Source: Lepidostoma basale | Taxonomy: Eukaryota > Arthropoda > Insecta > Trichoptera > Lepidostomatidae | Assembly (NCBI GenBank): GCA_022606425.2 | Contig: JAHDVF020001471.1 | Span: 372,001-436,000, forward strand | Direction: 5' to 3' | Length of the DNA: 64,000 nucleotides | In this document: one piece after another, positions 894 through 49,847 of the stretch | How positions within the stretch are numbered: position 1 is the stretch's first letter | Layout of the letters: each line of letters begins with the position of its first letter | Notes under the pieces: generated by a model | Told to the model about the DNA's origin: nothing | Databases searched by the model: none | What the model saw: the letters and a program-made list of their open reading frames with translations, nothing else | Position numbers and translations under genes: made by a program

Positions 894-3800
894 ATGCCCG
901 CGCCGCCGCCGCCCCCGCCTCCCGGGCCGCCGCCCCCTGGCCCGCCCCCGCCGCCGGCCCCCGCGCAGGCCTTCCGCTCGGGCGGCAAAAGCTCCGGAGA
1001 CGGCCGCAACGACCTGCTGCAGTCCATCCGCCAGGGCGCCAAACTCAAAAAAGCCGTGACGGTGGACAAGAGTGCTCCTGCGATCCCAGGGAAAGTGAGT
1101 GCAGTGGCTCCCAGCGCAGGGAACGGAGTGGGGCCCCGGGGCCCAGCGCCCGCGCTCAATGGCGGACCGCCCTCCCTCGGAGGCCTATTTGCTGGGGGAA
1201 TGCCCAAGCTGAGACCCACTGGCAAGGGATATGGTAACTACTATTGTACTTTATAATATAATGCCTACTGATTAGATAATGGAGTTGTTATTCTAATTTC
1301 ATAGTCCTTAGATTTTTTTTTGTCTACGTAATTTGTAATTTTACTATCTTTGTAAAATTATTCATTCAATGTAGTAAAAAAATTGTGTCTATAATCGTTA
1401 CGTTATAAGCAAACCATAAATATTTGTGGCTAGAATAATACATACCATTGAAGATCTTCGTTTGTTTCTCTTGTGACGTCCAGTACTTGCATTATCTGGT
1501 CTGGCCATGTTTCCATTTACTTCTTGTTTAGATTTTATTCATTCACCAACAATTTCTATGACACTTCTGCACTTTCTAACACTTGTTTTCCCTCTATACG
1601 GATAATTAAATGAAAATGAATATTCACTTCGCTCGCTCCTTGAATTGTATTTTATAAGGAAGAGTATCAACAGTAATGAACCGGCCAAATCAACGCACAG
1701 TATTATTATGGTTTATTGGACCTGACTTGTGTATAAACAATACATAATTTAAACACCTCCATTTGCAATATTTTGAAAACATTTCAATTTCATTTTATAC
1801 ACCACAGTCTTCAACGATACATTTTCGTGATTGCTTGCAAGATTAATTCTTAGTGTATATAACATTGTGCTGCGCAAAATGACTTCGGACAAGTACCAAA
1901 CGGATATTGATGAAATGAGAATAGAAGAAATATTATCTTTCGTACGAAGTAATTCCAATTCCAATGTGTTGAGTGATGGAGATATCTGTGATGTAATAGA
2001 GTCCCTCTATTGCAAAACTACCATCAAATGTGCTTATTTGGCCCTGTGCAATTATCCGCAAGTGTGCAAAGTCCCCAAAACTTACAGAAAACGTAGAAAA
2101 TACCTTCAAAAAATCATTGAGCTAACGAAAGAATCCCACTTCCCCTCTGTGGACCTTCCCAGTGACTCGCCATTCCCTTCAGCTGGCAGCGAAGATGTGA
2201 CTTTTAAAAGTATCTACACTAGAGGAAGGAAGATATTTAAGAATAATAGTAAAAATATAGGTTCTTTTCTTAACAAGCATTTCTCTAAAATGATGAAAAA
2301 TATACAGACCGTCAATAAGAAAGGATTCATCCAAAGAATGCATTTACATATGCTATGGAGAACCAATCCATTGGAAAAATTCCAACAATTCAGGAAGCGC
2401 AATGTCAATTTTGTGGAGTCTTTTCAGTATAACAAGGACTCACCGTGCTTCCTGGACTCCGCCAGTATATCCTCCTTCAGCAGTACATCTCACTCTCTTG
2501 TATCGCAACCGGTGTTTGATATTTCCGTTTCTGTCCAAAGCAATACTAAATGTTGCAATACTTTTCAAATAATTCCTGAAATTCATTATACTAACAGTAA
2601 GGCACTTTCTATTTTTTATTTCAACTTATCTCAGTCTCTATTACATTCAAAATATTATTACTTAAAATTTCTTGGTAAAAGTTCATTGTAAATAATAAAA
2701 TTAAAAAAATTAATAAAAAAGTTCATTACGTTAAAATTTTAATTGAGTATTAATTCACTTGAACAATAATATTAATAGTTCTGTAAATCTTGCTTTTTCT
2801 TTAGTATATTTCTTTATTTTACATTAAACAAGCATATTGGTTGAACAGGCGGAAATCAGAGCAGCTCCCAGCCCAGGGGATCTCCTACTTCTGCCACGCT
2901 CCCTCGAAGGACGACGCAGTCACCGGAGAAGCCTGCCCCCCAGAAGGTGGTGGACTCGGGCCCAGGGCCCTTGTCCGTGAGCCAATTGAGCCAGGTCCTG
3001 GGACAAACGTTGAACCAGGGTCGACCCAAAGAGGGCCCCAAGCAGCCTCCGGGTCGGGGGCCCCCGCCTCAGCCCCCACCGCCCCCACAGACGAGTGCGC
3101 CAAATCTTAGTATGGTGAGTTTATTCATTTGAATATCCATTATAATGGAGGGGTCTCTTTTACAGTCTCCATTTTACTAAGTTACATAATTATTTAATTT
3201 CAGTTTCAAAAACACCAATAAGAAGTAACGAAAAAACAAATTATATTATATAATTACTTGTTTTTATATTTCGATGGGTTTCATTATTTACAGTTAACTT
3301 CTTCCGACAAATTTCAATTAACAACAAATATATCAATAACAAGTGTATTTATAAATCCTGTCTATAATTACCCTTCTTATTTATGTATATACACAATTTT
3401 TTATAAAGAAATACATTTAGAAAAAAACAACAACAACAAAAACAGGCTCGCTGATGAATAAAAAGAATATACGAGTACTGTTAATATGTGTCATTGCATA
3501 ATGTCAATCCCTGTATTACACACAAATGCATGGTCGACATTCAACCTGTTAAATAAATAACACTGTGAATGAAATATTCATAAAGTTTATGAATATAATA
3601 ACCCTCTATAAATTTTTCTGTCACTTCTTTATTATAATTTCTAGGAATAAAAACAGTGTTAATATCTTAAGGGGGTATTCTAGTCTAGATGCCCAAATTT
3701 TAGGTGTTTTTTCAGGCGCTATAAAGAAAAAACAATAAACATTTTTAGCATAAGTTATTTATTGATATTTCAACAATATAAAAAAGTACAATAATAAAAA

Positions 3801-18800: not shown

Positions 18801-21800
18801 TGGCCTTGTTTTTAAATTATTAAAGTTATAATAAATAATTTAAAATCATTCTTAGCATAAGCATAAATTTTATATCTGAAATCATGATTTTATTAACATT
18901 TTTTCCTCACTGAATATTAGCTAAATTTAAATGAAGAAATTTTATTTTTGAAATAGTTCATAATTTTTTTTTTCTCAGCATGTTGTTACATTCATCTCAA
19001 TTTGGTATGTGTGTGTTTTTTATGTAGATTTTTACGTAAAAGGGCGTTGTCCATATTCAGATAATTATATGTGGCAATATTTGGCCAAAATGTTTCATGA
19101 CATCACTACACAGAGTGTTGTGAATTTTAAAGCAGTTTTACCAGATTGCAGCCTTCGCTAGGCACACTAAATAAATTATATCTTGGATGTTATGTTTTTA
19201 CGATACAGTCATAACATTACAAATATACATACATACCCCAATTGAATGTAATTTTGCTTTTTATTTCTTTACCTCTACCAGATTATTATTTATGACATTT
19301 TAAATATATTTACAAATTATATGCATACTGGTTTTTAATGTATGAAAAAGATATTCACAAAATAATATAACTAACTAAACTAACTAACCATCACGCCGTC
19401 TCCCCGAAAGGGTAGGCAGAAAGAATGGACTGTCACACTTTTACTGATGCGGCACTACATCCTTCTCTTTTCGCTCCGCGGGAGACGCGGTGTGATGGTT
19501 TGCGAACCTCATCTGTATTTTTTTAATATATTTAACCCTTAGCCGCTACAATGTTTTTCAAAATTCCACCGAGAAATGCTTATATACCATCCGTAAATAA
19601 TTTTAAAATTAATAAATTAAAGAGTTACACACTTTATTATTTGTGCATGAAAAATATTGCACGCTGATCGTATATCAGATGTGGGATATCTCTTTCTGCT
19701 TGTTCGTACAAGTGAACAAGCGAGTTGCATTAATTATCGCGTACAAGCGAGATGCACTAATTATCATGTAGAAAGTATTTTATTTCAAGAATTTATTGGT
19801 CATATTTTAAGCATAAGAAATATATCCATTATAGCAAAGATGGCAGTACATAATGGAGTTCTAGTGCCAACCCGTATGTATGAAAGTGAAGCTTGGAGCT
19901 GACAGAATAATGAAACTAGCATAAATACTGTAGAAATGAAATCACTGAGAAGAATGTGCACGGAAAACAATATAAGATAGAATACCAAACGGCAAAATAA
20001 GGAAGAAATGTAAGGCAGATGGTTTGAACATATGAAATGAATGGAAGAGAGATGAATGGTTAAAATATTGTATACAAGCAGTGTGCGTGGAAAGCGAAGC
20101 CGTGGAAAACCAAGGAAAGCAAGGCATGACCAAATTAATCAAATACTAAAAGCCGGCCACATTCGAAGTCGGAAAAATCTACGAGCGTGCATGTTACGAT
20201 GTATGAATGTATAGGAATCTAGAAAGGTATGTCAGGACAGAGTAGTATGACGGTCCATCCCCTCTGCCTACACCCCTAGTGAAACGGCATGATGATTAGT
20301 AAACAACAAGATTCAACATGATTCATCATGTCAACCTACATGTGCCATACAGCCGCAGCGACAAAGTTCTGTTGTCACGTCAGAGGTGACTTACGTCCGT
20401 TAAGGGTTAACATTCTAAGGATTGAATAAAATATTCAATTTCCTTATTATATATGTTTATTGTAGCGTTAACTCATTATTGTAAGAGTGGGCTCTGATCA
20501 TGTCTTCTGGATCTAAAATAAAGTTATCCGACGGCTTTTAATTGCATATAAAAAACTTATTTTTTATTAGATGAATCCAATTGAATGATGACAGATTTAT
20601 GGAGATGGGATATTTAATTGTTTGAGAAAACTTGTTTATGATATCACCTCTAATGATTCACCGGGTAATTACACTTATTGTGTTGTGAGTTCTTACATCA
20701 GAGTGGTTTATAAGGAGCTTCAAGGTGCTCGCCAGAGGCGGATAATTGTTACTGTATATCCCAAGACTCGAGTGAATGACCTATTTATTCCGCTTGTACC
20801 TACACAAATCCAGTGGCAATAAATACACTGCAAACAAATTGGATCGATGATACTCTGTAGAGAGACATTTTTATTGAGTAAGATTAATTAGGGGGAGGGG
20901 GTGTCCGTTAAAGCCGAAAGTCCGTTATATAAAAATAGGTTTCAAATAAATCATTTTTTTATTTATTTAAATATGTACACTGTATTAAGATAATAAGCAA
21001 TACAAAACACAAACAAAATTCTATGTATTGTCTTCAGACACTCGTCGTGAAGTGACTTGGCTGTTAGATATCGAAACACTTGCTTTCGGTAATCCTGCTT
21101 TGAAAAAGGAATCAAGTTTTGTTTGCACTTTTGAAGTTTGCTGTTTTTTTTATATACCAACTCTCTAAAATTACAAAAATGCATTTAATATAGTTGAACT
21201 TCGTTATCTGACGAATAGTCAATAAATGTTATTAAATCGTTGAGATGTGATCTTACCACCGATAACTTCATTTTTGGCAGTGTTGTTTCTTCTTCTTCGC
21301 TATCTTCCCTTCCATCCTCGGCATTATGTCTCAAATTCTAATGCTAGACGTATGACGTGATTATCACAGCAGCTAAAAATTGTTTACATGCGGCGACATT
21401 TTAATTTAAGCATGTATAATATTAACAGGACGTTTTTAATTTTTTTACATTTGACCGGATATTTTATCCGTTATATCCGAAATTCGTTAAATAGAGATCC
21501 GTTATATTGAGGTTTTACTATACTTAAATAATAATGCATTCCAAATTTGAACACAGAAATTATTTTATACATGCAATAATCATGTAGCTAATAGTACTTT
21601 CTTTTGGAAATATTATGCACATTTATCTAATCTTACACACTCAACAACAAACCATCACACCGTTTCTTGGAAGGAAAAGGCATAGAGAATGGATCACCAC
21701 ACTATTCCATCCAGTCACACCTCTCTAGCTTCCTCCATTCATACAGAGAGTCATACAAGCACGTCGATTCTTTCGATTTCTAACATGGCCGACCTTTAAA

Positions 21801-24800
21801 ATTTGATTAATTTGATCATGCCAAGTTTTCGTAGGTCTTTCTGGACTCCGTTATCCATTCACTAAACTTTCTTCATCCATGTGTCTCATATGTCCAAACC
21901 TACGTAGTGATCCTTTCATAATTTTGTTCATAATACTATCATCCACTCTACTTTCCTTCCCGATATCAGCATTTGAAATTCTATTATACATTAGTTCCAC
22001 GCATAAAATAATATATATGTTAATATACAAGTAATATTTATAAACAAACCACAAATGTTAGTAAGTTAAGATTAATTATCTTTCCAAATGAACAATGGAA
22101 TTCCACAGTGTCAAAGCATTGAATAAAATAAAAAATAATAATAAAACACTTTTAGTTTAGTAAGACAAGTTTTTACATTACATTATTTTTGTTAAAACCA
22201 ACAAAAATAAAGTGATGTGAAAACTAGTAATAATATAATTTTATGAATATTATCTTTTATTAAACAACCAAACACACCTATAAACTCTTTTGCTTTGTCA
22301 GCAATATTTACATTAAAAATAAACTGTGTAATAATGTATGGTTGTTCATCCTGGTGAAGTATAAATGTGAGGGAATCTAGAGAGGTGTGTCAGGATAGAG
22401 TAATGTCTAACTTAAGGCGTTAACCTTTAAACGCCCGTGCGCCGCGTGCAATAAAGGTAGCCCACTGCCCAAGCAAATATTCGCGCCACTTGCAACCTTC
22501 GCGTAGCTGTTATAAAAATAATTATATCTCTAAAATTAGTCGTCCTATTTAGGTAAAATAAAAAGCATTATGAAAATAAAAGATTGTTAATAATTTACAA
22601 AAGCTTTATTTGTAATTTTTCACATTTTATATAATCTTATAATTAAACATTAAAGTTAAAGAATAAAAAAATTATTTAAACATTCACAACAGCAATGTGA
22701 TTACAACCGCCCAGTTCAGAAGATGACAGTAGTGTAGATTGTGTGTTTTATTAGGCGGACCGTAATAAAACACAATGCATATCCCAAGAGTGGACCTTGT
22801 AATTCAGGTATAATAATATTACTCATGACAAAAATATTTATCGGAAACAAAAATAAAATTATGTATCCGTATCTCAAAGACATTATTTACATAAGATAAT
22901 ATTCATATTTTGAATACTATTGTCATAAATCAATCTAAACCGATAGCGAAATCATCGGTCCCTTACGGGACCACTGGACATTGAACGACACAATTCTACG
23001 GTCCCGTACGGGACCGCTGGGTGGTTAAAGGTTAACACTAGAATTTCATATTGACCAATTTTTTATATATTAAAACCCTGTTTTTTTTCCACTTTTGAGT
23101 TTATTTTTCTTGACACGTTTCGAAGGTTTTACACATTCATCATCAAGAGAACAATATTAACTCTAGATGTAATAGTTATTAATTCTTAAAGAAAATGTGT
23201 CGATGTGATAATTAATGACTATTTATCATTTCTTGAACAGTTATGTTAAACTCCATATTAAATAATTATTCAAATAAAAATATCTCTTTTATAGAATGAC
23301 ATGATTCACTCTTCTAAAGCATTATCAAATATCTATTGACATTCTCAAATCCATTTGATAATGCCTTAAAAACATGTCATTCGTATTGATTACTATATTT
23401 AATTGATTACTTTCCCTTTTTTTATTTTTAATATTAACTCGTCTATTCTATTTGATTTGTTGCAGGGATCGTCCGATTCGGCGCCCCCCGCATCGGTGCT
23501 CCAGAGGATACAGAGTCTCTCGGTCTCCGACCAGCATGTCTCCCATAACCCCGGCCCCCCGAGCCCCTCCATTGGAACGCTGCAACGCAACAAGAGCGCC
23601 CTGCACGGCTCCAGCGGCAGCATGTCCTCCCTCAGTCAGTCCAACTCCCTGCCCAGCCCGTTGGTCCTTCACCCGCATGATGCGAGCGACGGGTTCCACA
23701 AGGTGGTGAGCCACGGCAAACCCAACGTAGCCCCTAAACCCCCTGGTATAGCTGTGTCTCCAAACGGTGCCCCGCCTAGTAACGGCAGCAGCAATAACGG
23801 CAATGGAAGGCCATCTCCCCCAATGAAGAAGCTCGTTATGAATGGAAAACCAGCATCACGAGCACAGAGTATGCGAGTACCGAGGTACGTTCGAGATTTT
23901 GAGTTTCTTTTTGATAAACTTAAAAAATTTATTGTTTCTTGAACAACAATCTAAAACTTCATATTAAATAATTAATATGAATGAAAATATCTGTTTTCTA
24001 AAAGTTTTATTATATTTTATAGGAATGACACTTTGCAAATGCATTATAAAATGTCACATTTGACGTCATTCCCACTAAATATAATAAAACTTATGTTTTA
24101 ATTCGTATTAATTAAACAAATTTAAGGAACACTGGAATTCCATAATCACGATTTTTTTTACGTATATTTAACTTATTAATACAAATGAAATCCTCTGTTT
24201 TCTAGAAGTTTTATTATAATATATGGGAATGACTTGTTTCGCCTTACTAAAGTATTATCAAATGCCTTAGACAGGTGAATAATACATTAGATAATGCCCT
24301 AGACAGGCGAAACATGTCATTCCCATAAAATATAATAAAACTTATAGAAAACAAACATTTTAATTTACATTAATTATTTAAATATGGAATTTTACATCAT
24401 TGTTCAACTCACTAACCATCACGCCATCTCCCCGAAGGGGTAGGCAGAAAGAATGGACTGCCACACCTTAACTGATGCGGCACTTCATCCTTCTCTTTTT
24501 GGGAGACGCGGTGTGATTGGTTGCGAACCTCATCGCCACAAATAGTCGAGAAACAATAAATATGATTACACTGTTTATTCCAATTTTGAGTTTATTTTTC
24601 TTGACATGTTTCAAAGGTTTTACGCCATTATCGGAAGAATGATATCCAGTTTTTTTAATAACAAAAAAATAGTTTTGAGTTATTTTAATACCATTTTAAC
24701 ATGGTAAGTCTTCATTAGATGTACTGGAGTAACACAGTGGTACCTGCTAGGTTAGACTGGGAGAATCTTGAATGATCATAAACAATTATCTAGGTTATTA

Positions 24801-27800
24801 TGTCAAGTTGCATTTGCCTTTATTCGTAATGTTTACAAGAGTAATCCAATTATTTTATTTCTAATTGAACTATTTCTATCCAATTACATCAACTAACTAA
24901 CCATCATGCTGTATCCCTGAAGTGGTGTGCAGAAAGAAAAGACCATCACACTGTTCTTTCCTAAAATACTTATTTCATTCCTCAACATTCATACATCATC
25001 CATTTGCACCGATTTGTTAAACTGGTTAAATTTTATTTATATTAACAAAGTTAACAATTTATTATTTGATCAGTTCAATTATTATATTTACCATTTGACA
25101 TTTAGTTATCAGATTTATGTTATCATGTTTTTTTTTTGTTAATGTGTCAAATTTAAATTTATACCTTTTGAGGCCAGTAAAAGATGAAAGCCCTCGGTAA
25201 TCAATTATTTTTCTGATAGATCAACACTTCTGATTGGATTTTTTTTATATTCATATTTAACCCCTTTGCATATCCGTGAACTATCTCTCAATAGTTCAGT
25301 TTTTGTCATTTTATTAATGAAATCACAAGAAGAAAAGTGTTTAAAATTATAATTAATTTTTTTCTACTATTAAACAATTCAGTATTTCAAAGCTGAGTGG
25401 GGAAGTAGCGAACAACTATGACTGCAACTCCGAAGGTCCCGGATTCGATTCCCGGCGATGACAGTGTGTTTGTCACACTGTCTTTGGTCTGGTGTAGAAT
25501 TCACGTGACAATAAAATGATGGTAGATTAGTATCACATGTCATGAGAATCAGTATAATAGCTATATCCTTTACATCGATTTGGCTCGTGCTATAATGGAC
25601 TTGGACTTGGATCTTCTGGCTTACAGAGGTTCAGCTGATGAAAAGAGCTATTCAACAAAATAATAATAATAATAAGAAGAAGAAAGAAAAGTCCTTACAG
25701 AAGTGATTGAGTGAAACCTGATGTGGCACAAGAAGAATAATAAGAAGAAATTAATAAAAGCACATTTATATTTTTACATCTTTGTTATAACCAAATCTTT
25801 ATTGATTAAATGTCCATTCCCCAGATCTCCCTTGGTGGTCATGCCGTGCCCCCCGAGCCTGTCTTCGGGGGCCAATGAATTTGGTCCACTGGGGGCCAGG
25901 CCCAGCGCTTTCCACCAATCGCAGGACTCCATCGACAGAAAGATTAACCCCATTCTCGGGAAGAACTTCGCACCTCAACCACCTCTAGGTAACTTTTTTT
26001 TTCATTATTTACCAGATTAAAAGTTTTATATATTCATAAATAAATTATTTATATATTTGATTATTTTCTGCCTTTATATTTTGGGCCCTATCTTCATAAT
26101 CTCTTCTTCTTGTTCTTTACCATCGTGGGTCAGCCCTCCTAACATGATTTCTCCAGGACGATCTTCAATCTGCTCTCTAAGTCCACATTTCTTGAGACTG
26201 GCCTCGATAGATGATTTCCATGTTGCCAAAGGCTGTCCTCTACCCTGATATTTAAATCGTTAAAGTATTAAATAAATAAAATTACATTTTCTCTGTTGTT
26301 TCTTGTGTTGAAATACTATCACATTGAGGTTAAATGCCGTTTCCTGGTGTTCAATATATTTTTATCACCATGCTTCCGGTTAGATAGCAGATTTTATGTC
26401 ATATAAGCATAATATAATATTTGCATCCGTAAAAGTGTATTTTATTCTTCGTGTCCGCTTTTCAGTGGTTAGAGAACACTAAAATGCTATTTCAAATGTA
26501 AAACTTGATTCATGTCCACAAACCGCACACTTTATACATGCGGAATCAGGTCAGGTCTCTTACGGCGCAGGTATTTCAGAAATATTAAGATCATTTTATT
26601 TATATAATAAACATGAAACAACTGAAGTTTGATACACTAATAAAGATTTATAAAAAAGCACTCTTAGTAAAAAATGTAAATATATCAATTCCCAAACCAT
26701 TTAAGTGTAAAACTAACTAACTAACCATCATGCCGTCTCCCCGAAGGGGTAGGCAGAAAGAATGGACTTTCACCCTTTTCTTTCCTGATATTATATTTCT
26801 CTCGTTTCCTCAACATTCATACATTGTGTCATGCTCGCGCGTCGATTTCTCTGACTCGTCACGTGGCCGACATTCAATATTTGATTTATTTGATAGTGCC
26901 ACGTTTTCCTCGATCTTCCTCTATTTCTAGTTCCATTTACATTGTTAACATATTTTTTTACCATTCGTCTTCATTCATTCTTTCCATCTGTCCAAGCCAT
27001 CTTAACGATCCTTTCAATATTTTGTTCATAACACCATCATTAGCACCACATTCACTTCTTATATTTTCATTCTACACTATCATATACAGAGTATCACACA
27101 TTTGTCTAAGAGATCTCATTTCTACTGCATTTATTCTACTTTCATCCTTCTTTTACCAGTTCCATGCTTCATGAATGAACAAGAATACTATTAATAATAC
27201 GCGAGAGTTATTTCAGGATAGAACAATGGCGATCCATCTTACCGCTCTGGGGAAACGGCGTGATGAATTTTAATTTTTTTTTAGAATTATTTATTTAATG
27301 TTTTGTTGTTTCATTTCGTTATTCTTGTACAATAATGATGAGTATGTTTCCAGCGCATCGGCCCTCAGTGCGGGCGCCCCTCCGGCCCCCGACCCACGGG
27401 CCGCCCCCGCCTCCTGCGCGGCCCGCTAACTTGCCGCCTCCGCCTCCACCCCCGCACCGCCACCCTGCTCCGCCCCTCACCACACAACCCCATCACACCA
27501 GATCCAACGTGAGTATTATTATTATTATTTTGCTGAATCACTCTTTACATCATTACAGTGCGAGCCAAATCAATGTGAAGGGTAATAGCTATCGTATTGA
27601 TTCTCGTGACATGTAATAGGTAGCTTATCTATCGCCATTTTATTGTCACGTGAATTATGTACCAGACCAAAGACAGTGTGACGATCAAACTGCCATCTCC
27701 GGGAATCGAACCCGGGACCTTAGAGGTGGCAATCAAAGCGCTTGTCCTTTACATCGAGTATATCCTAAACACATTGCCTGCGGGTGGATTTGCACGCGTT

Positions 27801-28805
27801 GACACAAGGAGAATAGTTCAAACTTTATATTGCTCTACCAAGTATGAAGATATGAGATATAAGGTATATCTTCGAAAAATAAATACTGAAAGTATGTATA
27901 AGTATTTTAATTCATAAAAAAAAATTATCACTATGTATACATTTTTCTTTTTCTAATCCAAATATCATATTAATTAATTGTATTTAGCATTATAAAATTT
28001 GTTTGCCTTTTTCAAAACCATTTTTATCAATTTACAAATTCCGTGTTTGGAGATTGACTTTGGAATTGTTTCCCTACCAGTCGTCCCCCAACACCGGGCC
28101 GCCACAGCCGCCGGTGCGAGGCTCCTCCATGCGGCCTTCGGAGCTGGACTCGCGCTTCGCCGAGCGTTTCCATCCGCCTGCACAGTTCCCCTTCCCCGAC
28201 GCCTTCCTGCGGATAGAGAAGACCTACAGCAGTGCAAATGCCGCTGCTAACGGTAGCCACACTTATAACACTCATCTTTATTAAATCAAATATATCTCAA
28301 TGTGATGGAATGACAAAAATATGGAAGGATAGCCGGGAGTCAATTTCCCAAGAGAGACTAGCCTAACAATAGGAACAGACCAAAGATCTATAAGTAGAAG
28401 AAGAAGATATCTCAATATTTTGATTCCTTTACCGTATTACCTTTACCGTAACATTTAAAATTCTTAGTTTTTTTTTTTCAATTTTATAGAGGACTTTGTT
28501 TTTTGAACAATGATGTAATAATCTGTATTAGTACAAATGAAAACTTTTAGAAGACAGAAGTTTTAATTATTTATAGAGAATGACTATTTTTTGTATATAA
28601 TGCTGGTATAATAAAAACTTCATTGAAATAGCATATTTCAATGAAGGTAGATTGGATTGATAAAATTATTTTCCGTCATATGAGAAAATATGTATTCATA
28701 TTATATACATTTTTTTTAGTGAACAAACAACAAGCCCCGTTACCGCCGACAACGCAAATCCAACTGAGTTCGAAGCTCTGGTCGAATAATTCATCAACCT
28801 GCTAA
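894..28805 (+). CDS. Vrp1: Verprolin / WASP-interacting protein (WIP) homologue, 7 coding exons
   Basis: WIP-family proteins bind actin and chaperone WASP during Arp2/3-driven actin assembly. Exons: 894-1233, 2849-3114, 23466-23884, 25825-25988, 27354-27508, 28081-28252 and 28720-28805; every junction is GT/AG and phases agree, giving 533 residues (vertebrate WIP is about 500). Residues 1-26 are almost all proline. A WH2 actin-binding motif (LLQSIRQGAKLKK) is at about 41-53, followed by the family segment GLFAGGMPKLR. The middle is Ser/Pro rich with PPPPPP stretches. Residues about 468-499 (SELDSRF, then IEKTYSS) match the WASP-binding segment and KTYPS motif of WIP, and APLPP follows. The start ATG has A at -3; the GTG two codons upstream was not used. 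Intron 2 is 20.35 kb of mostly transposon debris, and intron 1 contains another gene. The TAA is followed by a long open frame, described separately. Function is inferred from family similarity. Confidence 0.9.
1234..1878. other. Verprolin intron 1, first part: no gene seen
   Basis: AT-rich DNA between the first verprolin exon and the nested gene. I see no open frame, splice pair or recognisable repeat; it may hold the promoter of the nested gene. Confidence 0.4.
1879..2691 (+). CDS. Intronless protein of unknown function, nested in verprolin intron 1
   Basis: A 270-residue open frame with ATG at 1879 in good context (AAA before, A at -3) and TAA at 2689-2691. An AATAAA signal follows at 2694-2699. 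I do not recognise the protein. It begins MTSDKYQTDIDEMRIEEILS, has a helical-looking, mildly acidic N-terminal third (to about residue 90), then a basic Lys/Arg-rich middle (many RKRRKY/KKGF-like patches) and a Ser-rich, hydrophobic C-terminal end. No signal peptide or clear membrane span is visible. It lies on the same strand as verprolin, wholly between exons 1 and 2, and has no intron, which fits a retrogene or small lineage-specific gene with its own promoter and polyadenylation site. The length of open frame in such AT-rich DNA is the main evidence that it is real; it could also be an alternative verprolin exon, although the frame stops and the poly(A) signal argue against that. Confidence 0.6.
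   Translation: MTSDKYQTDIDEMRIEEILSFVRSNSNSNVLSDGDICDVIESLYCKTTIKCAYLALCNYPQVCKVPKTYRKRRKYLQKIIELTKESHFPSVDLPSDSPFPSAGSEDVTFKSIYTRGRKIFKNNSKNIGSFLNKHFSKMMKNIQTVNKKGFIQRMHLHMLWRTNPLEKFQQFRKRNVNFVESFQYNKDSPCFLDSASISSFSSTSHSLVSQPVFDISVSVQSNTKCCNTFQIIPEIHYTNSKALSIFYFNLSQSLLHSKYYYLKFLGKSSL
2694..2699 (+). terminator. Polyadenylation signal AATAAA of the nested intronic gene
   Basis: Canonical AATAAA three bases after the TAA of the intronless gene, in an A/T-rich stretch. It would end that transcript upstream of verprolin exon 2 at 2849. Confidence 0.5.
3670..4460. repeat. Unclassified noncoding repeat-like block
   Basis: Starts near GGGGGTATTCTAGTCTAG and contains tracts (actaaatcggtacttgagat; tttcgcgcgatcttagtcta) that look like the subterminal region of an insect DNA transposon. 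No open frame and no clean terminal repeats or target duplication could be found, so class and limits are uncertain. Confidence 0.25.
4876..5143 (+). mobile_element. Non-LTR retrotransposon 3' end (abundant GTTA-tailed family), relic
   Basis: The broken frame reads the C-terminal tail of the reverse transcriptase (RWFGHM-like, then NGVRSRGRPRK, then WQSILSAY). It shares this with more than 20 other copies in the window. It lies in verprolin intron 2 and is truncated at its 5' end. Confidence 0.6.
5655..6236 (+). mobile_element. Non-LTR retrotransposon 3' end with intact GTTAG tail
   Basis: One of the best-preserved plus-strand copies of the family. It covers the end of the polymerase (AVHNGVL, LMYGSEA, then MRSLRRMCGKSVYDR, LRWFGHMERM, NRGRPRKTWHDQINQI, CQDRTVWRSILSAYPSGETA) in two frames split near 6003-6017, with a stop in place of Trp near 5771. 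It ends in GTTAGTTAGTTA, the short tandem tail used by this family. Similar C-termini belong to RTE/R1-like non-LTR elements; I cannot fix the clade. Confidence 0.75.
6237..6435 (+). mobile_element. Second 3' end of the same non-LTR family, abutting the tail of the first
   Basis: The sequence restarts at ATAGAGGAAGACCGAGGAAAACG directly after the (GTTA)n tail of the upstream copy and runs through the same polymerase end to GAAACAGCGTAATGG. The tail is truncated. The junction suggests insertion of one copy into the tail of another, or template switching. Confidence 0.65.
6470..7315. other. Intronic AT-rich DNA: nothing recognised
   Basis: No coding exon, no clear repeat and no structured element found in this stretch of verprolin intron 2. 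Confidence 0.4.
7322..7977 (-). mobile_element. Non-LTR retrotransposon 3' portion, longest copy of the abundant family
   Basis: The minus strand carries a 141-codon open frame (7977-7552) reading EQVSEFVYLGSMFT, ERRVGAGNKVNGALR, VPSLMYGSEAWNWQKKDESR, MRSIRRMCG and MRWFGHMERM. These are conserved blocks after the polymerase core of RTE/R1-like elements. Downstream (7551-7322) the frame is broken but continues through the RGRQRKTWHHQINQILKVGHV and SAYPCGETV-like end. It is truncated at its 5' end near 7977. Confidence 0.75.
8095..8235 (+). mobile_element. Badly decayed 3' end of the abundant non-LTR family
   Basis: Only the order of landmarks survives: ACATTACCAATTTGATCCAA, then GTTAAATATCAGCC, then a degraded version of the shared 3' end (ATTCTCTATCCACCTCCCTTGGGGATACAGCG). 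Confidence 0.4.
8389..8785. mobile_element. hAT-type MITE with perfect 8-bp target-site duplication
   Basis: The ends are perfect 15-bp inverted repeats, CAGTGCTCCGCAACC and its complement. The element is flanked on both sides by ATGTAGGG (8381-8388 and 8786-8793), an exact 8-bp duplication as hAT transposases make. It is 397 bp long with no transposase, so it is non-autonomous. The perfect flanks and ends suggest a fairly recent insertion compared with the relics around it. An internal palindrome GAAAGAGTCGACTCTTTC lies near 8500. Confidence 0.85.
9240..9605 (+). mobile_element. Non-LTR retrotransposon 3' end (abundant family)
   Basis: Shows RSECGANESVMNKIM, then NGTRNRGRTRKTWH, then the ACSERKMWQSIIFAYSFRETA-like end. 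It has an internal deletion after TGGCA at about 9440 and ends at GATGGTTAGCTAGTTAGTT. Confidence 0.65.
9895..10215. repeat. Interspersed repeat related to the 19.5-kb piggyBac-like element
   Basis: Shares CACCCTTTGACTGG-like start, GAGAAATGCT, and CGCGAATATCAGATG with 19541-19690. It also shares the run CTAACCGATCGCGAATATCAG through AAAGTTAGCATATTATTAT with 45585-45955, where a SINE interrupts it. No open frame; ends not defined here. Confidence 0.45.
10411..10510 (+). ncRNA. Hammerhead-ribozyme-like end of a Penelope-type repeat, relic
   Basis: GTTCTC (10411-10416) can pair with GAGAA (10451-10455). Between them come GTGATAAAG (degenerate CUGAUGA box), a GCCTTC stem remnant, then CGAAAC-AT-GTC (10441-10450), where AC and GU can form a two-base stem III. 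This matches the minimal hammerhead of Penelope-like elements: GAAA box, tiny stem III, GUC cleavage site. The tail AAAATAAACTCAAAAGTGG recurs at the other copies. G8 of the core is A here and three extra bases precede the box, so activity is unlikely. Confidence 0.4.
11530..11905 (+). mobile_element. Decayed non-LTR 3' end interrupted by about 135 bp
   Basis: 11540-11640 (ATGAATGAAGAAAGATTGG to AATAAATCAAATATTGAAT) and 11774-11905 (CAAATATTGAATGTCAACCAC to CCCCTTCGGAGAGATGGCG) are consecutive parts of the abundant family. The motif CAAATATTGAAT is present on both sides of the intervening AT-rich segment. Confidence 0.5.
12590..13660. mobile_element. Candidate DNA transposon with inverted ends, split by a SINE
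   Basis: TCAGAATATTAATGGATCAAGTCCA near 12630 is repeated in inverted orientation near 13585-13615, with further CA(C/A)TAATATTCTG copies at about 13090 and 13425. The interior has no intact reading frame. A tRNA-SINE (12790-12985) is inserted. Class unknown; limits approximate. Confidence 0.35.
12790..12985 (-). mobile_element. tRNA-derived SINE, copy 1
   Basis: Read on the minus strand it starts with a tRNA-like head: TGGCTGAGTGGTAAGAGCTC (A-box like) and GGTCCCGGGTTCGATTCCCG (B-box), followed by a shared body (GATGGCAGAGTGATTGTCAC, GGTCTGGTGTAGAATTCACG, TGACAATAAAATGGCGATAG, CACATGTCATGAGAATC). The same body occurs at four other sites in the window, so this is a SINE and not a tRNA gene. 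Confidence 0.8.
13700..14015 (-). mobile_element. Non-LTR retrotransposon 3' fragment of a different family
   Basis: The minus strand reads broken pieces typical of the end of a reverse-transcriptase frame, finishing in an AAGAAGAAAAAGAAGAAGAT-like microsatellite tail (forward TCTTCTTCTTTTTCTTC). No continuous frame; assigned by layout only. Confidence 0.35.
14200..14655 (+). mobile_element. Non-LTR retrotransposon 3' end (abundant family)
   Basis: Has AIHNRVLVPILMYESEAWD, then MRKLYGKMMYDRISNADI, LRWFGHIECMD, and the RKTWHNQINQILKVGLVRS and CQDRVV end in several frames. Its last bases run into a second non-LTR fragment. Confidence 0.6.
14645..14915 (+). mobile_element. Second non-LTR family, 3' end with AAG tail
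   Basis: The forward frame reads MKWYGHVKRRPPDHTVN, a stop, then LPRQPSRGRPKNTWMIQYN, VLQRNGLSEGDTQNRARYSL and RSRRAHPNSQYRR, then (AAG)n. This is a distinct reverse-transcriptase C-terminus from the abundant family, joined end to end with it. Confidence 0.6.
15369..15945. mobile_element. pogo/Tigger-like MITE flanked by TA
   Basis: Terminal repeats CAGTAGAACATCACTTATCC and CAGTAGAACGTCGTTTATCC (complement of the right end) face inward, and each end is flanked by TA (15367-15368, 15946-15947). Subterminal TCCGGATAA-type words recur inside. The 577-bp interior has no transposase, and an A-rich run at 15634-15656 may mark an insertion. TA duplication and CAGT ends fit the Tc1/mariner-pogo group. 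Confidence 0.7.
16048..16178 (-). mobile_element. Short non-LTR-family 3' end with divergent terminus
   Basis: Carries the shared 3' signature (CGTCTCTCCGAAGGTGTAGG, AGAATGGACTGCCACACTTT), then CGATGCTC...CCCGCGGGAGACGCAGCATG. The same composite occurs at 19383-19505, 24410-24540 and, inverted, 35355-35500, so it is a distinct short subfamily. Confidence 0.5.
16962..17290 (-). mobile_element. Non-LTR retrotransposon 3' end (abundant family)
   Basis: The minus strand reads the polymerase end (GANDGVMNKILKGSLRWLGQ, RGRPRKTWHDQINQ, SRRNRRACMTRCMNVEEARE) broken by frameshifts, with the family 3' end at 16962-16990. Confidence 0.65.
17390..17450 (-). ncRNA. Second hammerhead-like motif (CTGAAGA...CCGAAACG)
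   Basis: On the minus strand, CACTGAAGAAGGATGAGTAC is followed by CATCCGAAACGTTTGTGAAA. CTGAAGA fits the CUGANGA core, GGATG and CATCC form a 5-bp stem II, and GAAAC follows. The position after stem III is G where hammerheads need a non-G, so it is probably a decayed copy. Confidence 0.35.
18128..18625 (-). mobile_element. Non-LTR retrotransposon 3' end (abundant family), long copy
   Basis: A 101-codon minus-strand open frame (18445-18140) reads MINKIKKGSLRWFGHMERMD, GRPRKTWHDQINQLLKGGHV, CVNVEEVRELCQDRTMWRS and ILSAYPSGETA. An upstream frame (to 18620) adds AVQNGVLVPTLMYGSEAWRR. It ends with GGTTAGTTAGTTAG on the minus strand. Confidence 0.75.
18660..18800 (-). mobile_element. Short 3' end of the abundant non-LTR family
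   Basis: Only the terminal segment (CMTRCMNVEEVKEICQERTV and the GETA-like end) remains, directly beside the previous copy and in the same orientation. Confidence 0.5.
19375..19512 (-). mobile_element. Short composite non-LTR-family 3' end
   Basis: Same composite as 16048-16178: TAACTAACTAACCATCACGC, then AGAATGGACTGTCACACTTT, then CGCGGGAGACGCGGTGTGAT. It retains its TTAG tail. Confidence 0.55.
19536..20406. mobile_element. piggyBac-like MITE flanked by TTAA, carrying a nested non-LTR insert
   Basis: Left end TTAA-CCCTTAGCCG (19532-19545) and right end CGTTAAGGG-TTAA (to 20410) are inverted copies, with TTAA on both sides, the hallmark target of piggyBac elements. A plus-strand non-LTR 3' fragment at 19835-20298 sits inside, so about half the length is foreign. 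Part of the interior matches 9895-10100. Confidence 0.6.
19835..20298 (+). mobile_element. Non-LTR retrotransposon 3' end nested in a piggyBac-like element
   Basis: Shows KMAVHNGVLVPTRMYESEAW, then frame-broken MKSLRRMCTENNIR, GKPRKARHDQINQILKAGHI and a terminal GCCTACACCCCTAGTGAAAC. Confidence 0.6.
20860..21525. mobile_element. Probable pogo/Tigger-like DNA element, ends poorly defined
   Basis: TATAGTTGAACTTCGTTATC near 21190 and the complement of GGTTTTACTATA near 21510 look like inverted ends, with CCGTTAT-type words repeated inside and also at 20900-20930. No transposase frame was seen. Confidence 0.4.
21645..22000 (-). mobile_element. Non-LTR retrotransposon 3' end (abundant family)
   Basis: The minus strand carries MYNRISNADIGKESRVDDS, IMNKIMKGSLRRFGHMRHMD, and a broken KTWHDQINQILKVGHVRN end. 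Confidence 0.6.
22424..23031. mobile_element. piggyBac-like MITE, 608 bp, TTAA target duplication
   Basis: TTAA at 22420-22423 and 23032-23035 flank inverted ends CCTTTAAACGCCCG and CCTTTAACCACCCAGCGG. Subterminal GGTCCCGTACGGGACC palindromes are near the right end. It has no transposase. It is inserted just beside a scrap of the abundant non-LTR family (22365-22410). Confidence 0.75.
23075..23400 (-). repeat. Palindromic repeats with hammerhead-like ends
   Basis: Minus-strand 23152-23106 reads GTTCTC, TTGATGATG, ACCTTCGAAAC, GTGTC, AAGAA: an almost complete minimal hammerhead layout, followed by the shared AATAAACTCAAAAGTGG tail. A second palindrome at 23285-23385 pairs GAATGACATG with CATGTCATTC around CATTATCAAAT and TTTGATAATG. 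Confidence 0.4.
24000..24380. repeat. Palindromic repeat pair with GCGAAACATGTCATTCCC end
   Basis: Two units share TCTGTTTTCTAAAAGTTTTA, a TAGGAATGAC arm, and the inverted partner GTCATTCCCATAAAATATAA. In the second unit AATGCCCTAGACAGGC then GAAACATGTC resembles stem II, GAAAC and GUC of a hammerhead. Related copies lie at 30030-30200 and 36780-36890. Confidence 0.4.
24408..24540 (-). mobile_element. Short composite non-LTR-family 3' end
   Basis: Same arrangement as 16048-16178 and 19375-19512 (CACGCCATCTCCCCGAAGGG, then GGGAGACGCGGTGTGATTGG). Confidence 0.5.
24575..24645 (-). ncRNA. Hammerhead-like Penelope-type end, relic
   Basis: The minus strand reads ATTCTTCCGATAATGG, AACCTTTGAAACATGTC, AAGAAAAATAAACTC. 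The GAAAC-AT-GTC segment and shared tail are clear, but the CUGAUGA box is degraded. Confidence 0.35.
24893..25010 (-). mobile_element. Short 3' end of the abundant non-LTR family
   Basis: TAACTAACCATCATGCTGTA followed by CACACTGTTCTTTCCTAAAA and CTCAACATTCATACATC; only the terminal 100 bp or so is present. Confidence 0.45.
25385..25605 (+). mobile_element. tRNA-derived SINE, copy 2
   Basis: Head with GGTCCCGGATTCGATTCCCG (B-box), then GACAGTGTGTTTGTCACACT, GGTCTGGTGTAGAATTCACG and CACATGTCATGAGAATC, ending near GGCTCGTGCTATAATGGAC. It is upstream of verprolin exon 4 and opposite in orientation to copy 3 downstream of exon 5. Confidence 0.8.
26712..27270 (-). mobile_element. Non-LTR retrotransposon 3' end (abundant family) plus a short inverted scrap
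   Basis: 26712-27175 is a minus-strand copy running from TAACTAACTAACCATCATGC to the MRSLRQMCDTLYMIV and ELVKEG region. 27190-27270 (TTTCAGGATAGAACAATGGC to GGGGAAACGGCGTGATG) is a scrap in the opposite orientation. It lies between verprolin exons 4 and 5. Confidence 0.65.
27550..27745 (-). mobile_element. tRNA-derived SINE, copy 3
   Basis: Minus-strand head with AAGGTCCCGGGTTCGATTCC, then the shared body and an end matching copy 2 (GCGAGCCAAATCAATGTGAA versus the complement of 25570-25600). It begins 40 bp after verprolin exon 5. Confidence 0.75.
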
Positions 28806-29990
28806 CACCAGCTGCAGGCCGAGCAGCCTGCATGTTCGGCCAACCAAGAGCCCCCGCGCCCCCAGTCGGAGCCCTCGCGCCCCCTTCCCTGGATCAGCGC
28901 ACCGGTGCTGCAGAACACCACCTGCCGCGTCCTGCTGGACCCCCGCAAGCTGCTCTGCGAGAGTTCCTCTATTGTGGCCCTCATTCCCTGCCAGACAATC
29001 CGCAAGACCCCCCAGACTGCTAGTGAACCTTGTGAAAGTGCAACTAAACCCGAACCCCTCGATGACTCCCAAGAGGTCCCCCTCGAAGTGTTTCAAAGTG
29101 ACTTACTCTCTGAAATTTTATCATCCGCCAACGCTTTACAGCTTTTAGGAAGTGATATCAGTATTTTATCTCCAAGTAGTTCTAACACCAGTGTAGTCGC
29201 AGAAGTTCAAGTTGAAAATAATCCTGTAGTGGAAATTCCTACTCCCGCTCAAGTCACCAATGTATCGAAAGAGACTGAAAATCAAGAAGCTTTAACCAAC
29301 TGGTGTTTTGAAGGTGACGATGGGTTTAGGGATGTTATCGACGCCATCAACAGGCTCTGCGACACCATGTCTAGCTCTAGTTCTAATGCAAACACGGAGG
29401 ATGATCCCGCAAACGCCGCGTTTATCCAACGGGCCGATAGTGAAGAAAGTAGAATTACGCAACAACCTAAAACTCGGACTACCGAATTCCAAATCGATGC
29501 TAGGAACGCTACAGACCAATTCAATACTACCGAAGATATTTTTTTAGGCAATATTACGCAGCCCGCACCAGTCACCGACAAGTTAACAGCGAGGCTGCCA
29601 CTCGATGTGACTGACTCCGTAGACAGCTCTACATGGGCCCCCACCCCAGACTCGCAGTCCACACCGGAGCTAGGCGAATACGCGATTCCCGATTCTTCCA
29701 TCGCCGACTCGTCTTCGCAGGCGGCTATCGGAGACGATTCTTCTTCGCCTGCCGTTATAGAAGACGATTCCTCCACAAACCACACGGACCTCCTTCAGTA
29801 CAGCATGTGCAGCTCCAGCATCAACAACGAGGACTCGTGGCTGCTGGTGGGGGAGGCGGGGGAAGGCCACCGCCCTCTGCCAGAGGAGGTGCCGCCTCCC
29901 GGCCACGTGGCCGCCATGCGAGTCAAGTTTGAGACCATCACCAATGTCAACACCATGAGACTGCTTAAGAAATCTGAAGATGAAGTTTAA
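28806..29990 (+). CDS. 394-codon open extension of verprolin past its TAA (candidate stop-codon readthrough)
   Basis: The last verprolin exon reaches TAA at 28803-28805, and the identical frame then runs without a stop to TAA at 29988-29990. The first in-frame ATG is at 29367, 188 codons after the stop, so most of it cannot be a separate AUG-started protein. It begins HQLQAEQPACSANQEPPRP and continues as an acidic, Ser/Thr-rich, probably disordered segment with hydrophobic islands (VFQSDLLSEILSSANALQLL; DGFRDVIDAINRLC) and, near the end, EDSWLLVGE, which fits the W-x-x-L/V form of Atg8-interacting motifs (motif match only). I do not recognise the domain. Alternatives are a nonsense mutation, a base error, or splicing around the stop; the only AG that would keep the frame (CCAACCAAG|AG near 28850) is a poor acceptor. 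Composition and length make coding use likely; the mechanism is inferred. Confidence 0.65.
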   Translation, partial: HQLQAEQPACSANQEPPRPQSEPSRPLPWISAPVLQNTTCRVLLDPRKLLCESSSIVALIPCQTIRKTPQTASEPCESATKPEPLDDSQEVPLEVFQSDLLSEILSSANALQLLGSDISILSPSSSNTSVVAEVQVENNPVVEIPTPAQVTNVSKETENQEALTNWCFEGDDGFRDVIDAINRLCDTMSSSSSNANTEDDPANAAFIQRADSEESRITQQPKTRTTEFQIDARNATDQFNTTEDIFLGNITQPAPVTDKLTARLPLDVTDSVDSSTWAPTPDSQSTPELGEYAIPDSSIADSSSQAAIGDDSSSPAVIEDDSSTNHTDLLQYSMCSSSINNEDSWLLVGEAGEGHRPLPEEVPPPGHVAAMRVKFETITNVNTMRLLKKSEDEV

Positions 29991-32900
29991 CATTATCAGT
30001 TCGCCCACAGCTTATAGATACAAATTGTTTCTTGAACACTGATGTAAAACTCCATATTCAATAATTAATACAAAGGAAAACCTCTGTTTTCTAAAAATTT
30101 TATTATAATTTATGGGAATGACCTTTCTAAGGTAGACATTTAATAATGCCTTAGAAAGGCAAACAAAATAAATTATAATAAATCTTCTAGACGTTTTCTC
30201 TTATTCTATAACTGCATTCATTATTTCACATCTTTTAAAATGGTCTAGATACGATTGTCGCAATTTAAAACTTTGTCAATATCCACTTAATCAAATGTGA
30301 TTTTATTTCAAGCTGTACTTTTGACATATCAAGTTGAAATATTTGTAACAATTTTGTAAAATGTGATACGTACATTGTGTAGGTACTTCATTAGGTGGTT
30401 GGTTTTTTTTCAATTCAAGACATTTTCTTCTCGAATTGAAATAGGAAGGCACTATATAATACACTAAATGTATTATCTTTTTGCCTACACCTAATTTAGT
30501 GATCTTTTGATGTTAGGGAATTGTGAATTGTCACTAAATCATAAAATTAGCATATGAGTATCTTCACTTGTTTTTTTTTTTTTAATTAAATATAGTCATC
30601 GGTTAGGTGTATTGTGTGTAGCACATTTGTGAGGAGAACGTGGAGATTTGGGGTGGAGCGCCAGTTCAGGATACCCCCCAGGCCTGGTTGTGATCAGTAT
30701 CATGTAAACAGACTCCTGGAGCAACGCCAACCCATATCTGAGGGACCCGACACACCGAGCAGTGTGTGGAATTATCTTAATACGATTGTTTCATAAACTA
30801 TAATGTAGGTTATGTAGTTTTCGTGGTTAATTACTTAATATTTTTAACTGTAAATTTTTTAACTTTATTATCTAATTCGTTAACATTTTGATGGTATATC
30901 CCTGTTGCTTGATAACTTATCGATAATAGTATTTTGTGAAAAATAAATTATCACTCGTTAACCGCCTACACTTGGATATTGTTTATGAAATTTTCAATAG
31001 TGAAATTATCAAATATTAGACTAAGTGTATTTTTGCTTTCTATATATGTTTGAAATACGTATTATTATGTATTGAAATTTACAGTTTACAATTTTTTTGT
31101 TATCGAGTTAAAATTACACTTTCTAAACAAATTTGAGCCAACCATAGAGATGTGCCAATGTTTTTTTAAATGAATTTGGTCAAACTATTATTGTTTCTTA
31201 TTTTATATATATTCTCACTGAAAGGCCTGAAACATTTATATAATATTTAATTAACAGCAATGCACCTCAAACTTGTGAAATATTCATCTTGAGTACATAG
31301 AAGCTTTATCGAACTTAGATCAGTTGTAAAAAGTCCTGTATTTAGCGACAAATTATAACTGTGCTTCTTTGAAGAGTGCATAAAGTGATAAATAACTAAT
31401 AATAAGATTACAAAATGTATTTCTGTAACTGTAGTTCTGTTTCTTGTTAATTTTATATACATTTGTACCAAATACATACAGTTTCTGTTTTATATTCATA
31501 AGTGAAGTGTTTTTTTAATATTAAAAATGTACCAATCCAAGGTTCCGTTTTCCACTTTCATAACAATTTAATTTGTGGATTAAATACTTTCATTTACCCA
31601 TGAATTGCACTTGAAGCAAAACAGAAGCTCATTTTCGTTGTTCATTTTTCTATTCATCTGTAATTTGGTAACGCTAGGGTAAGTTTTAGTAAAACCTAAT
31701 TATGTGCAATGCATTTAGGAGTTACACACTCCTCAAGTTTATACGGATTCACTGTTATGATAATGCAATTTGTATGTATTATTTATTGTAACTAGTATAT
31801 GTTACACAAATATCATGCAAAGTTTATTTGATTGTTGAAACTTTACTTATAAACTATTGTCATTCGACGGGTGAGTATTTATTAAACCTGTCTATATTAT
31901 TCACTGGGCACATTCACGTTCATGTAATGAGAAAATATATCTCTTTGTTAGCTATTTGATTATTATATTCTCAAGCAATACAAAATGACCTATTCTGACA
32001 TAGCAACGTTCTAGTTTTAGTATCTCACTCTATTTGTAAGTGTTTAAAAATTATTTCGCAATGGAAATAAGTTGCTTTATTCTCTACAATCCAACTATTT
32101 GCACGATAAAATACGTGGATTATTCAAGAGAATCTAACAAAAACCGTTAAATATATGCACAATGACAATATTTGTATGAAATGTTATGTCATTTTGTTTG
32201 TACGTATTTTTTAACACTTAAAATATTTAACAATGAATTACTTTTATATAACATAAATATATTTTATTTTTTTAATTTGAACACTATTACATTCATATAC
32301 TGCAACAAGGTAGATTTGTGGAATTCAAATTTTCTATTAAATGTTGTAAAATACCGCAAGATGTCATCGAAATACATTTATATGTTATATTTTTAACCGG
32401 TTTTGGCATTGCAAAGTTATTATGTTTACCGGATGTATTAGTTTGTTCATATAATCGCGTACATAATTGCGTGACACACTGCAGTACTTAGGTTGATCTT
32501 GAAAGCATAATATCCCATGCTAGAAGTCATTAGAAGGATTCTTCAATTATCTGTAGTCTAATAATATTTTTGGTTAGAAAAGTAATTATTTTAAGTTATT
32601 ATTCTCTTAAACATTTTACTATTTGGACATTGCTTCAGTTTGTTACCCTGAAAAGAGTATGTAATTGCATAGTTAAATTTGGTGATATCGTGTGTGTTGG
32701 TAGAACCAACCAAGTTCGGGAAGGAAAGATTTCATGTTAACATAGTTTATTAAGGTATTCGTAAAGTATTTCACAAATCTAACTAGTCACTAAACTTGTC
32801 TGGAATAAGTCTTAATGTAACACCCGTAATGTGTAATACTTAGTGCTAGCGGCACTCTACCGGGGTCGAGAGAGGTCCGTTCCGCTATCAGCTGCAGTCA

Positions 32901-48906: not shown

Positions 48907-49847
<941 letters not shown>

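Follow-up and report, generated by a model that had tools for sequence, protein, structure and literature searches.

Verprolin and the open frame behind its stop codon

The window, i.e., the whole 64,000-nucleotide stretch analysed from the caddisfly Lepidostoma basale (GCA_022606425.2, contig JAHDVF020001471.1, positions 372,001 to 436,000), contains a verprolin gene on its forward strand and, directly behind the verprolin stop codon, a long open reading frame (ORF) in the same frame (Table 1). Pfam places a WH2 motif in verprolin residues 35–61 (E 9.2e-10), and the RFAERFHPPAQFPFPDAFLRIEKTY of exon 6 is presumably the WASP-binding end, by comparison with the WIP family; a PDB search gave no match for this end. 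The acceptor of the last exon lies at the 98.6th percentile among the AGs of the window under the assumed splice model. Translation of 28602–30100 shows that the protein ends in ...NNSSTC directly before the TAA. WIP-family proteins stop shortly behind APPLPP, and so does this verprolin.

Table 1. Features of the verprolin locus (positions in the window)
Feature	Position	Strand	Basis or remark
Verprolin exon 1, coding part with WH2 motif	894..1233	+	gene model
Verprolin exon 2	2849..3114	+	AG/GT borders, open frame
Verprolin exon 3	23466..23884	+	AG/GT borders, open frame
Verprolin exon 4	25825..25988	+	AG/GT borders, open frame
Verprolin exon 5, phase 0 at its end	27354..27508	+	AG/GT borders, open frame
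Verprolin exon 6, RFAERFHPPAQFPFPDAFLRIEKTY at expected WASP-binding end, phase 1 at its end	28081..28252	+	gene model
Verprolin last exon, coding part, ends ...APLPPTTQIQLSSKLWSNNSSTC-TAA	28720..28805	+	gene model, translation
In-frame TAA stop of verprolin, then C	28803..28805	+	translation, stop-to-stop ORF list
Conserved long open frame, 394 codons, closed by TAA 29988–29990	28806..29987	+	ORF list, homology, chance test
First 14 codons behind TAA, without similarity to P0001	28806..28847	+	alignment
CTG codon, possible near-cognate start	28812..28814	+	third codon behind TAA; aligns ungapped with first Met of P0001
Candidate 3' splice site AG, ctgctaacaccagctgcag/GCC, phase 0 for long frame, weak	28816..28817	+	best-scoring between TAA and codon 15
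Imperfect 9-nt hairpin, GGCCGAGCA / TGTTCGGCC, 89% complementary	28817..28841	+	folding energy ordinary
First ATG behind TAA, out of frame with long ORF	28832..28834	+	translation
Conserved block 1, LPWISAPVLQNTTCRVLLDPRKLLCESSSIVALIPCQT	28884..28997	+	37/38 residues identical to P0001
Conserved block 2, WCFEGDDGFRDVIDAINRLCDTMSSSSS, with predicted helix 173–188	29301..29384	+	alignment, structure model
Conserved block 3, VPPPGHVAAMRVKFETITNVNTMRLLK	29889..29969	+	alignment
First AATAAA behind verprolin stop	30167..30172	+	others at 30177, 30942; variant AATACA at 30067

The 394-codon run described in an earlier note on this DNA was recovered both by translation and in the ORF list. As that note had also said, the first in-frame ATG lies far downstream, at codon 188 (29367–29369) with 187 codons before it, and an in-frame AUG gives no account of the first half of the ORF. 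The note was mistaken in calling the stretch AT-rich, its G+C content being 53% against 36% across the window, but right that such an open run is improbable by chance, with a probability of about 1.5e-7 given the local base composition and 5.6e-13 given that of the window. None of 2000 first-order simulations was fully open, and the longest open run in any of them was 269 codons. A search of the 769-Mb assembly with the long ORF returned one match at E ≤ 0.001. None of eight poly(A)-type hexamers tested occurs within the ORF, and AATAAA is absent from 28806 to 29990, suggesting that the verprolin mRNA probably carries the ORF as 3' UTR.

Homologues and the border at codon 15

Judged by its sequence, the long ORF is genuine protein-coding sequence, for which chance is no explanation, because four database proteins align over 92–96% of it (E 1e-31 to 1e-115). 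These homologues, drawn from candidates of about 217–689 aa, are 329–427 residues long, and a profile search returned the same four. The closest, P0001, is 57% identical to the ORF and 37% identical overall to the distant homologue P0003, which, used as a query against the assembly, gave one match at E ≤ 10, the long-ORF locus. Conserved block 1 precedes codon 188, and thus translation begins upstream of that ATG. The encoded protein looks Ser/Thr/Asp-rich by eye and is probably disordered according to a model built on five sequences, in keeping with the acidic, Ser/Thr-rich content noted earlier; the Atg8-interacting-like EDSWLLV proposed at the same time is absent from all four homologues and is not conserved.

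It is very improbable that the ORF is a decaying gene whose start was lost recently in this lineage. Neither a start exon in the 345 kb of contig scanned nor an in-frame start was found, as decay would have it; however, 394 codons have stayed free of stops although the closest relative is just 57% identical, and block 1 has kept all but one of its residues.

The homology to P0001 begins abruptly at codon 15. Codons 15–29 are identical at 8 of 15 positions, whereas codons 3–14 (1/12 identical) score lower than any other of the 254 ungapped 12-residue windows. Such an abrupt loss of similarity is the pattern expected if an exon boundary fell between codons 3 and 15. In the P0003 alignment, the stretch behind the stop (0/11 identical) is no outlier, the first ungapped window scoring 0 and 11 of 188 windows scoring ≤ 0. 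The N-termini of P0001 and P0003 are identical at seven of seven residues, MSRSDTF, a start thus common to two of the four homologues. Scanning both strands of 345 kb of the contig, outside C581:1-172000, turned up no MSRSDTF-like peptide above control level, and the genome contains no uninterrupted exact encoding of MSRSDTF.

Possible modes of translation

We tentatively favour, at somewhat less than even chances, the reading that an insect protein in its own right, conserved and probably disordered, has the long ORF as its large 3' coding exon, joined to an upstream exon with the start. The ORF's DNA would sit within the last exon of verprolin; a different transcript would supply the start exon (MSRSDTF... 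in two relatives), spliced in just 3' of the verprolin stop, at 28817 or an AG nearby, while verprolin messages would terminate at the TAA and carry the long-ORF stretch as their 3' UTR. Support comes from the open, conserved, single-copy frame, the homology border, the homologues' own start and the lack of AATAAA before the ORF end. Against it, the candidate acceptor at 28817 (score −0.48, 64.7th percentile) falls below all six verprolin acceptors (0.66–8.18), and the ORF lies in the frame of verprolin, as separate use would produce one time in three. The upstream start exon was not found in the 345 kb of contig, nor by exact encoding genome-wide.

The absence of AATAAA between the two frames would also suit a dicistronic verprolin mRNA, on which ribosomes would reinitiate or enter internally directly behind the stop to make the ORF product as a protein of its own. 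The start would be an ATG in relatives and here the near-cognate CTG 28812, which aligns without gaps to the Met of P0001, or else ATG 28832, provided that the assembly has a one-base error there. Precedent exists in 159 annotated Drosophila dicistronic pairs (available part of PMC4528330). However, the first ATG behind the stop is out of frame, no in-frame ATG precedes codon 188, the CTG is in poor context (C at −3), and the predicted MSRSDTF similarity is absent, leaving this second cistron unlikely.

The earlier note had proposed a C-terminal extension of verprolin by stop-codon readthrough. That the extension is real coding sequence with homologues holds; that it is a readthrough tail of verprolin is unsupported. 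Some ribosomes would pass the TAA and extend verprolin to 928 residues, adding a disordered tail that is acidic and Ser/Thr-rich. This is consistent with a shared frame interrupted by a single stop with C at +4, with a long, conserved ORF that has no usable in-frame AUG, and with the abundance of readthrough in most insect species tested (PMC5100048, in part). However, conservation in the P0001 alignment is lowest at residues 3–14 behind the stop, two of four homologues have their own start, and RNA folding downstream of the TAA shows nothing unusual (z −0.52 to −1.08 in three stretches). UAA readthrough is a rare class, reported in Diptera only according to the available portion of a review (PMC4528330). 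A composite verprolin+ORF query found no verprolin-fused homologue among the 7981 candidates that had the most words in common with it, a limited search that missed ordinary verprolins too. Readthrough is not favoured, and we consider it rather improbable.

Slightly more doubtful still is a faulty TAA, due to a nonsense allele in the animal sequenced or to an error in the assembly, in what is a single long verprolin in this group. One transition separates TAA from a Gln codon, the codons behind it look protein-like (HQLQAEQP), and the starting Met of the homologue entries may be a gene-finder choice rather than the true start. On the other side stand the verprolin end shortly behind APPLPP, as in the WIP family, and the lack of a fused homologue in the limited search; the assembly offers no second copy for comparison.

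Comparison with known insect genes

In the readthrough curation described in the available parts of PMC5100048, the second ORF counts as an alternative exon if it contains a break between exons or a 3' splice site scoring at least 4 in MaxEnt, and as dicistronic if a fully conserved ATG lies inside; both classes also require that the sequence ahead of that point lack a coding signal. Insect shared-exon, shared-3'-UTR and dicistronic pairs (FlyBase classes; PMC4528330, in part) likewise have two unrelated same-strand coding sequences in a single terminal exon, with the downstream sequence inside the upstream gene's 3' UTR. Here, in contrast, the downstream frame abuts the upstream stop, in the same frame and with no start visible in the window. 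The readthrough genes of Drosophila and Anopheles, as far as the available text of PMC5100048 describes them, share the long conserved open frame right behind a stop and C. There, however, the stop is usually TGA rather than TAA, whereas here nearest-homologue conservation is lacking right behind the stop and two homologues have a common N-terminus of their own.

The long-ORF protein has no known relation to verprolin. Verprolin itself resembles the WIP family and Drosophila Vrp1 (PMC2931478, in the part available) in its N-terminal WH2, proline-rich middle and end shortly behind a PLPP motif, although two WH2 motifs are described there, whereas Pfam reports one stretch here.

The frame downstream of verprolin

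The 394-codon frame directly 3′ of the verprolin TAA, and in frame with verprolin (here, the long ORF), most likely belongs to a conserved, uncharacterised protein gene that overlaps the last exon of verprolin. An earlier note had placed it in AT-rich DNA; its composition is in fact 53% G+C, compared with 36% for the whole window. The same note's view that such a run is unlikely to arise by chance holds even at this local composition (p near 1.5e-7 for 394 open codons). None of 2000 first-order simulations stayed open over this length, and the remaining five frames across the stretch carry 6 to 33 stops each. A protein search with the long ORF, among candidates of about 217–689 aa, returned four homologues, i.e., P0001 (57% identity over 96%, E 1.2e-115) and three more distant ones (42% over 93%, 35% over 96% and 35% over 92%). 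A profile search with all five sequences recovered the same four, with none further among the 7992 candidates scored. The claim of a conserved protein frame past the TAA is thus borne out by 394 codons and four homologues.

Three strongly conserved blocks run through the five sequences. In the first of these (block 1, residues 27–64), the window and P0001 agree at 37 of 38 positions. The first in-frame ATG is codon 188, and because block 1 lies far upstream of it, translation is not begun there. The long ORF occurs at a single place in the 769-Mb assembly, in which the window corresponds to 372001–436000 of contig C581. No Pfam family reaches its cut-off in the long ORF or in any of the four homologues, no PDB chain matches the long ORF at E ≤ 1, and there is no match to it in phages. 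Stretches that fitted the pattern in viral contigs (34) and in prokaryote genomes (47) yielded no relative by tblastn. An AlphaFold model from the five sequences has a mean pLDDT of 39.5, with helices only at 100–109 and 173–188; this low confidence fits disorder, though the shallow alignment may contribute in part. A proposed Atg8-interacting EDSWLLV is confined to the window, where its Trp stands alone among the five sequences, the homologues P0001–P0004 reading DDSALYL, DDVSIYY, ENSD(gap)LYL and SPEDA, respectively. At the level of the alignment, the acidic stretch gives no sign of a conserved Atg8/LC3-interacting (LIR) motif.

The upstream gene, verprolin, was modelled as seven coding exons encoding 533 residues and the TAA, with AG/GT bordering all six introns. 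The model contains an N-terminal WH2 motif (Pfam E 9.2e-10), and its translation is proline-rich, with APLPP close to the C-terminal end; WIP proteins reach their C-terminus soon after APLPP. The last 85 residues have four matches in the PDB (E 0.031–1.4), none of which is WIP, and the WASP-binding C-terminal end of verprolin is therefore a predicted one.

Coordinates of the features discussed, in window positions
Feature	Position	Strand	Basis
Verprolin coding exons	894-1233, 2849-3114, 23466-23884, 25825-25988, 27354-27508, 28081-28252, 28720-28805	+	gene model
Verprolin TAA	28803-28805	+	gene model
Long ORF	28806-29987	+	open frame
Block 1	28884-28997	+	protein alignment
AATAAA after the long ORF	30167, 30177, 30942	+	motif
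Variant AATACA	30067	+	motif
Frame in verprolin intron 1 (270 codons from ATG)	1879-2688	+	open frame
Frame with RRM domain	46008-46304	-	Pfam
Frame reading like NDUFS7	48862-49215	+	open frame
Pro/His- and Arg/Glu-rich frames	53194-53853; within 59368-63276	-	open frames
Many short frames with RGRPRKTWHDQINQ-like peptide, and antisense	5910-9589, 14466-14968, 16963-20138, 26725-27171		open frames
One scanned frame of the RGRPRKTWHDQINQ-like set	7555-7977	-	open frame

No AATAAA occurs at 28806–29990, and therefore verprolin messages probably carry the whole long ORF as 3′ UTR, under any mechanism. The absence of the signal before the end of the long ORF agrees with both ORFs lying on one mature mRNA. 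PMC4528330 reports 159 dicistronic pairs and 14 genes with common 3′ UTRs in flies, and such shared-terminal-exon or dicistronic pairs present the same situation as verprolin and the long ORF. In a dicistronic pair, the second ORF would open with a conserved ATG in its own frame; no such ATG is found here, the first in frame being that at codon 188. Annotators could easily take the protein of the long ORF for verprolin 3′ UTR, or gene finders could overlook it. Depending on how its translation starts, the case is one of gene overlap, of a dicistronic mRNA or of UAA readthrough of unusual length, and verprolin expression and verprolin mutants in this group would have to be interpreted differently under each.

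Possible stop-codon readthrough and the onset of homology

The earlier note had explained the long ORF by readthrough of the verprolin stop codon, for which the frame common to both, the C at position +4 and the want of an AUG can be cited. However, the stop is TAA, which PMC4528330 treats as a rare class for readthrough; the C is present, but the usual leaky context, TGA-C, is not. Moreover, the protein alignment with P0001 argues against coding conservation directly after the stop. The first pair in the BLASTP alignment is residue 15 of the window frame with residue 13 of P0001, and an ungapped extension places the first Met of P0001 opposite window codon 3, a CTG at 28812–28814. Codons 3–14 are then identical to P0001 at 1 of 12 positions (score −9, the lowest among 254 ungapped windows of 12). 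In the weaker, more distant alignment with P0003, codons 4–14 are no outlier (0/11 identical); the first ungapped window scores 0, and 11 of 188 windows score 0 or less. RNA folding 3′ of the TAA, an optional stimulus of readthrough, is unexceptional (z −0.52, −1.08 and −0.56). Two small hairpins compete just behind the TAA, a perfect 7-nt inverted repeat (TGCAGGC/GCCTGCA, 28813–28832) vying with a 9-nt hairpin. A composite query of verprolin and the long ORF found no fused protein among the 7981 candidates with the most shared words, a weak negative because only these candidates were covered and ordinary verprolins were missed too. Searches of the literature on insect readthrough, Vrp1/verprolin and WASL-interacting protein found nothing on this locus. 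Readthrough is not favoured. In PMC5100048, a second ORF is filed as an alternative exon or dicistronic if coding signal is lacking from the stop up to either a fully conserved ATG or a splice site predicted with a MaxEnt score of at least 4; at the protein level, and against one close relative, the long ORF resembles this pattern.

Judged by these alignments, an exon border would be the simplest reading of the divergence before codon 15. P0001 and P0003 are 37% identical overall, yet their first seven residues, MSRSDTF, are all identical; these two proteins would represent the spliced product, and the window the genomic flank. P0004 starts differently, 15 residues before the block-1 Trp, and P0002 opens with Leu, which suggests that its entry derives from a cut contig.

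Candidate start exons and splice sites

The explanation that we favour is a separate protein gene, whose upstream start exon would be spliced into the last exon of verprolin after the TAA. We hold it tentatively, at slightly less than an even chance, because the start exon was not found and the candidate acceptor is weak. From the TAA up to codon 15, the best acceptor is the AG at 28817 (phase 0), which lies at the 64.7th percentile and scores below all six verprolin acceptors under a simple model with generic, assumed weights. Exon 5 of verprolin ends in phase 0, matching a hypothetical exon that begins at 28818. Exon 6 ends in phase 1, and its splicing to the long ORF behind the TAA would require the poor AG at 28848.

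No start exon was recognisable in 228.8 kb upstream (plus strand) or on both strands of 345 kb of the contig outside C581:1-172000. Exact start motifs are absent from the window, and ATG-initiated 7-mers before 28800 score at best 16 of a possible 35. At a threshold of 22, the 228.8 kb gave a lone 7-mer, LGRQDTF (score 24), which recurs at three further places in the 345-kb scan. The best of that scan, VSRSSTF (minus strand, score 25), does not exceed the control level set by three permuted peptides on the plus strand (23, 23 and 25), and nothing MSRSDTF-like did. Donor-linked pieces comprised one SDFF and one DSF (8499, with no in-frame ATG near by), and none of three MSRS starts was followed by DTF. 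Short ATG exons with a donor gave 395 candidates, the best of which, MSHSQQL, is unconvincing. Genome-wide, no uninterrupted exact encoding of MSRSDTF was found, and its pattern had one forward match (MSRRDTF, on a different contig) and no reverse match, compared with 3 and 1 in controls. With up to two mismatches and a GT, 164 forward and 163 reverse matches compare with 166 and 138 in controls. Among about 100 places listed, MPRSDTF on contig C1140 was judged a chance match, with a poor donor and surroundings that are not exon-like.

Splicing within the verprolin transcript was considered as well. Three GT dinucleotides precede the TAA in the last exon (28739, 28768 and 28781); paired with AGs at 28811–28871, only 28768 to 28848 removes the TAA in frame (81 nt), by a hand count of frames, and its sites are poor. 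Skipping exons 6 and 7 would keep the frame but lose the expected WASP-binding end, and nothing supports it. It seems unlikely, but distinctly conceivable, that conserved UAA readthrough, or CUG reinitiation beside the UAA, yields or appends a disordered protein of nearly 400 residues outside Diptera; if so, one verprolin message would give another protein besides the actin regulator.

Other frames in the window

The frame in verprolin intron 1 (MTSDKYQTDIDEM...) is possibly a nested gene. Its first 240 codons occur at one place in the genome, A-rich sequence follows closely 3′, and it has no Pfam match. As a 5′ exon of the long ORF it was rejected, since its donor at 2597 (phase 1) fits only the verprolin acceptor at 28720 and two poor AGs, one at 28734 and one at 28848.

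The minus-strand frame, whose RRM domain matches Pfam at E 1.3e-12, looks like RNPS1, and another frame, with no Pfam match at E 0.01, reads like complex I subunit NDUFS7. The Pro/His- and Arg/Glu-rich frames, the first of which has no Pfam match at E 0.01, resemble atrophin. The one scanned frame of the RGRPRKTWHDQINQ-like set likewise had no Pfam match at E 0.01; a common mobile element, now in fragments, is the probable source of these recurring frames.
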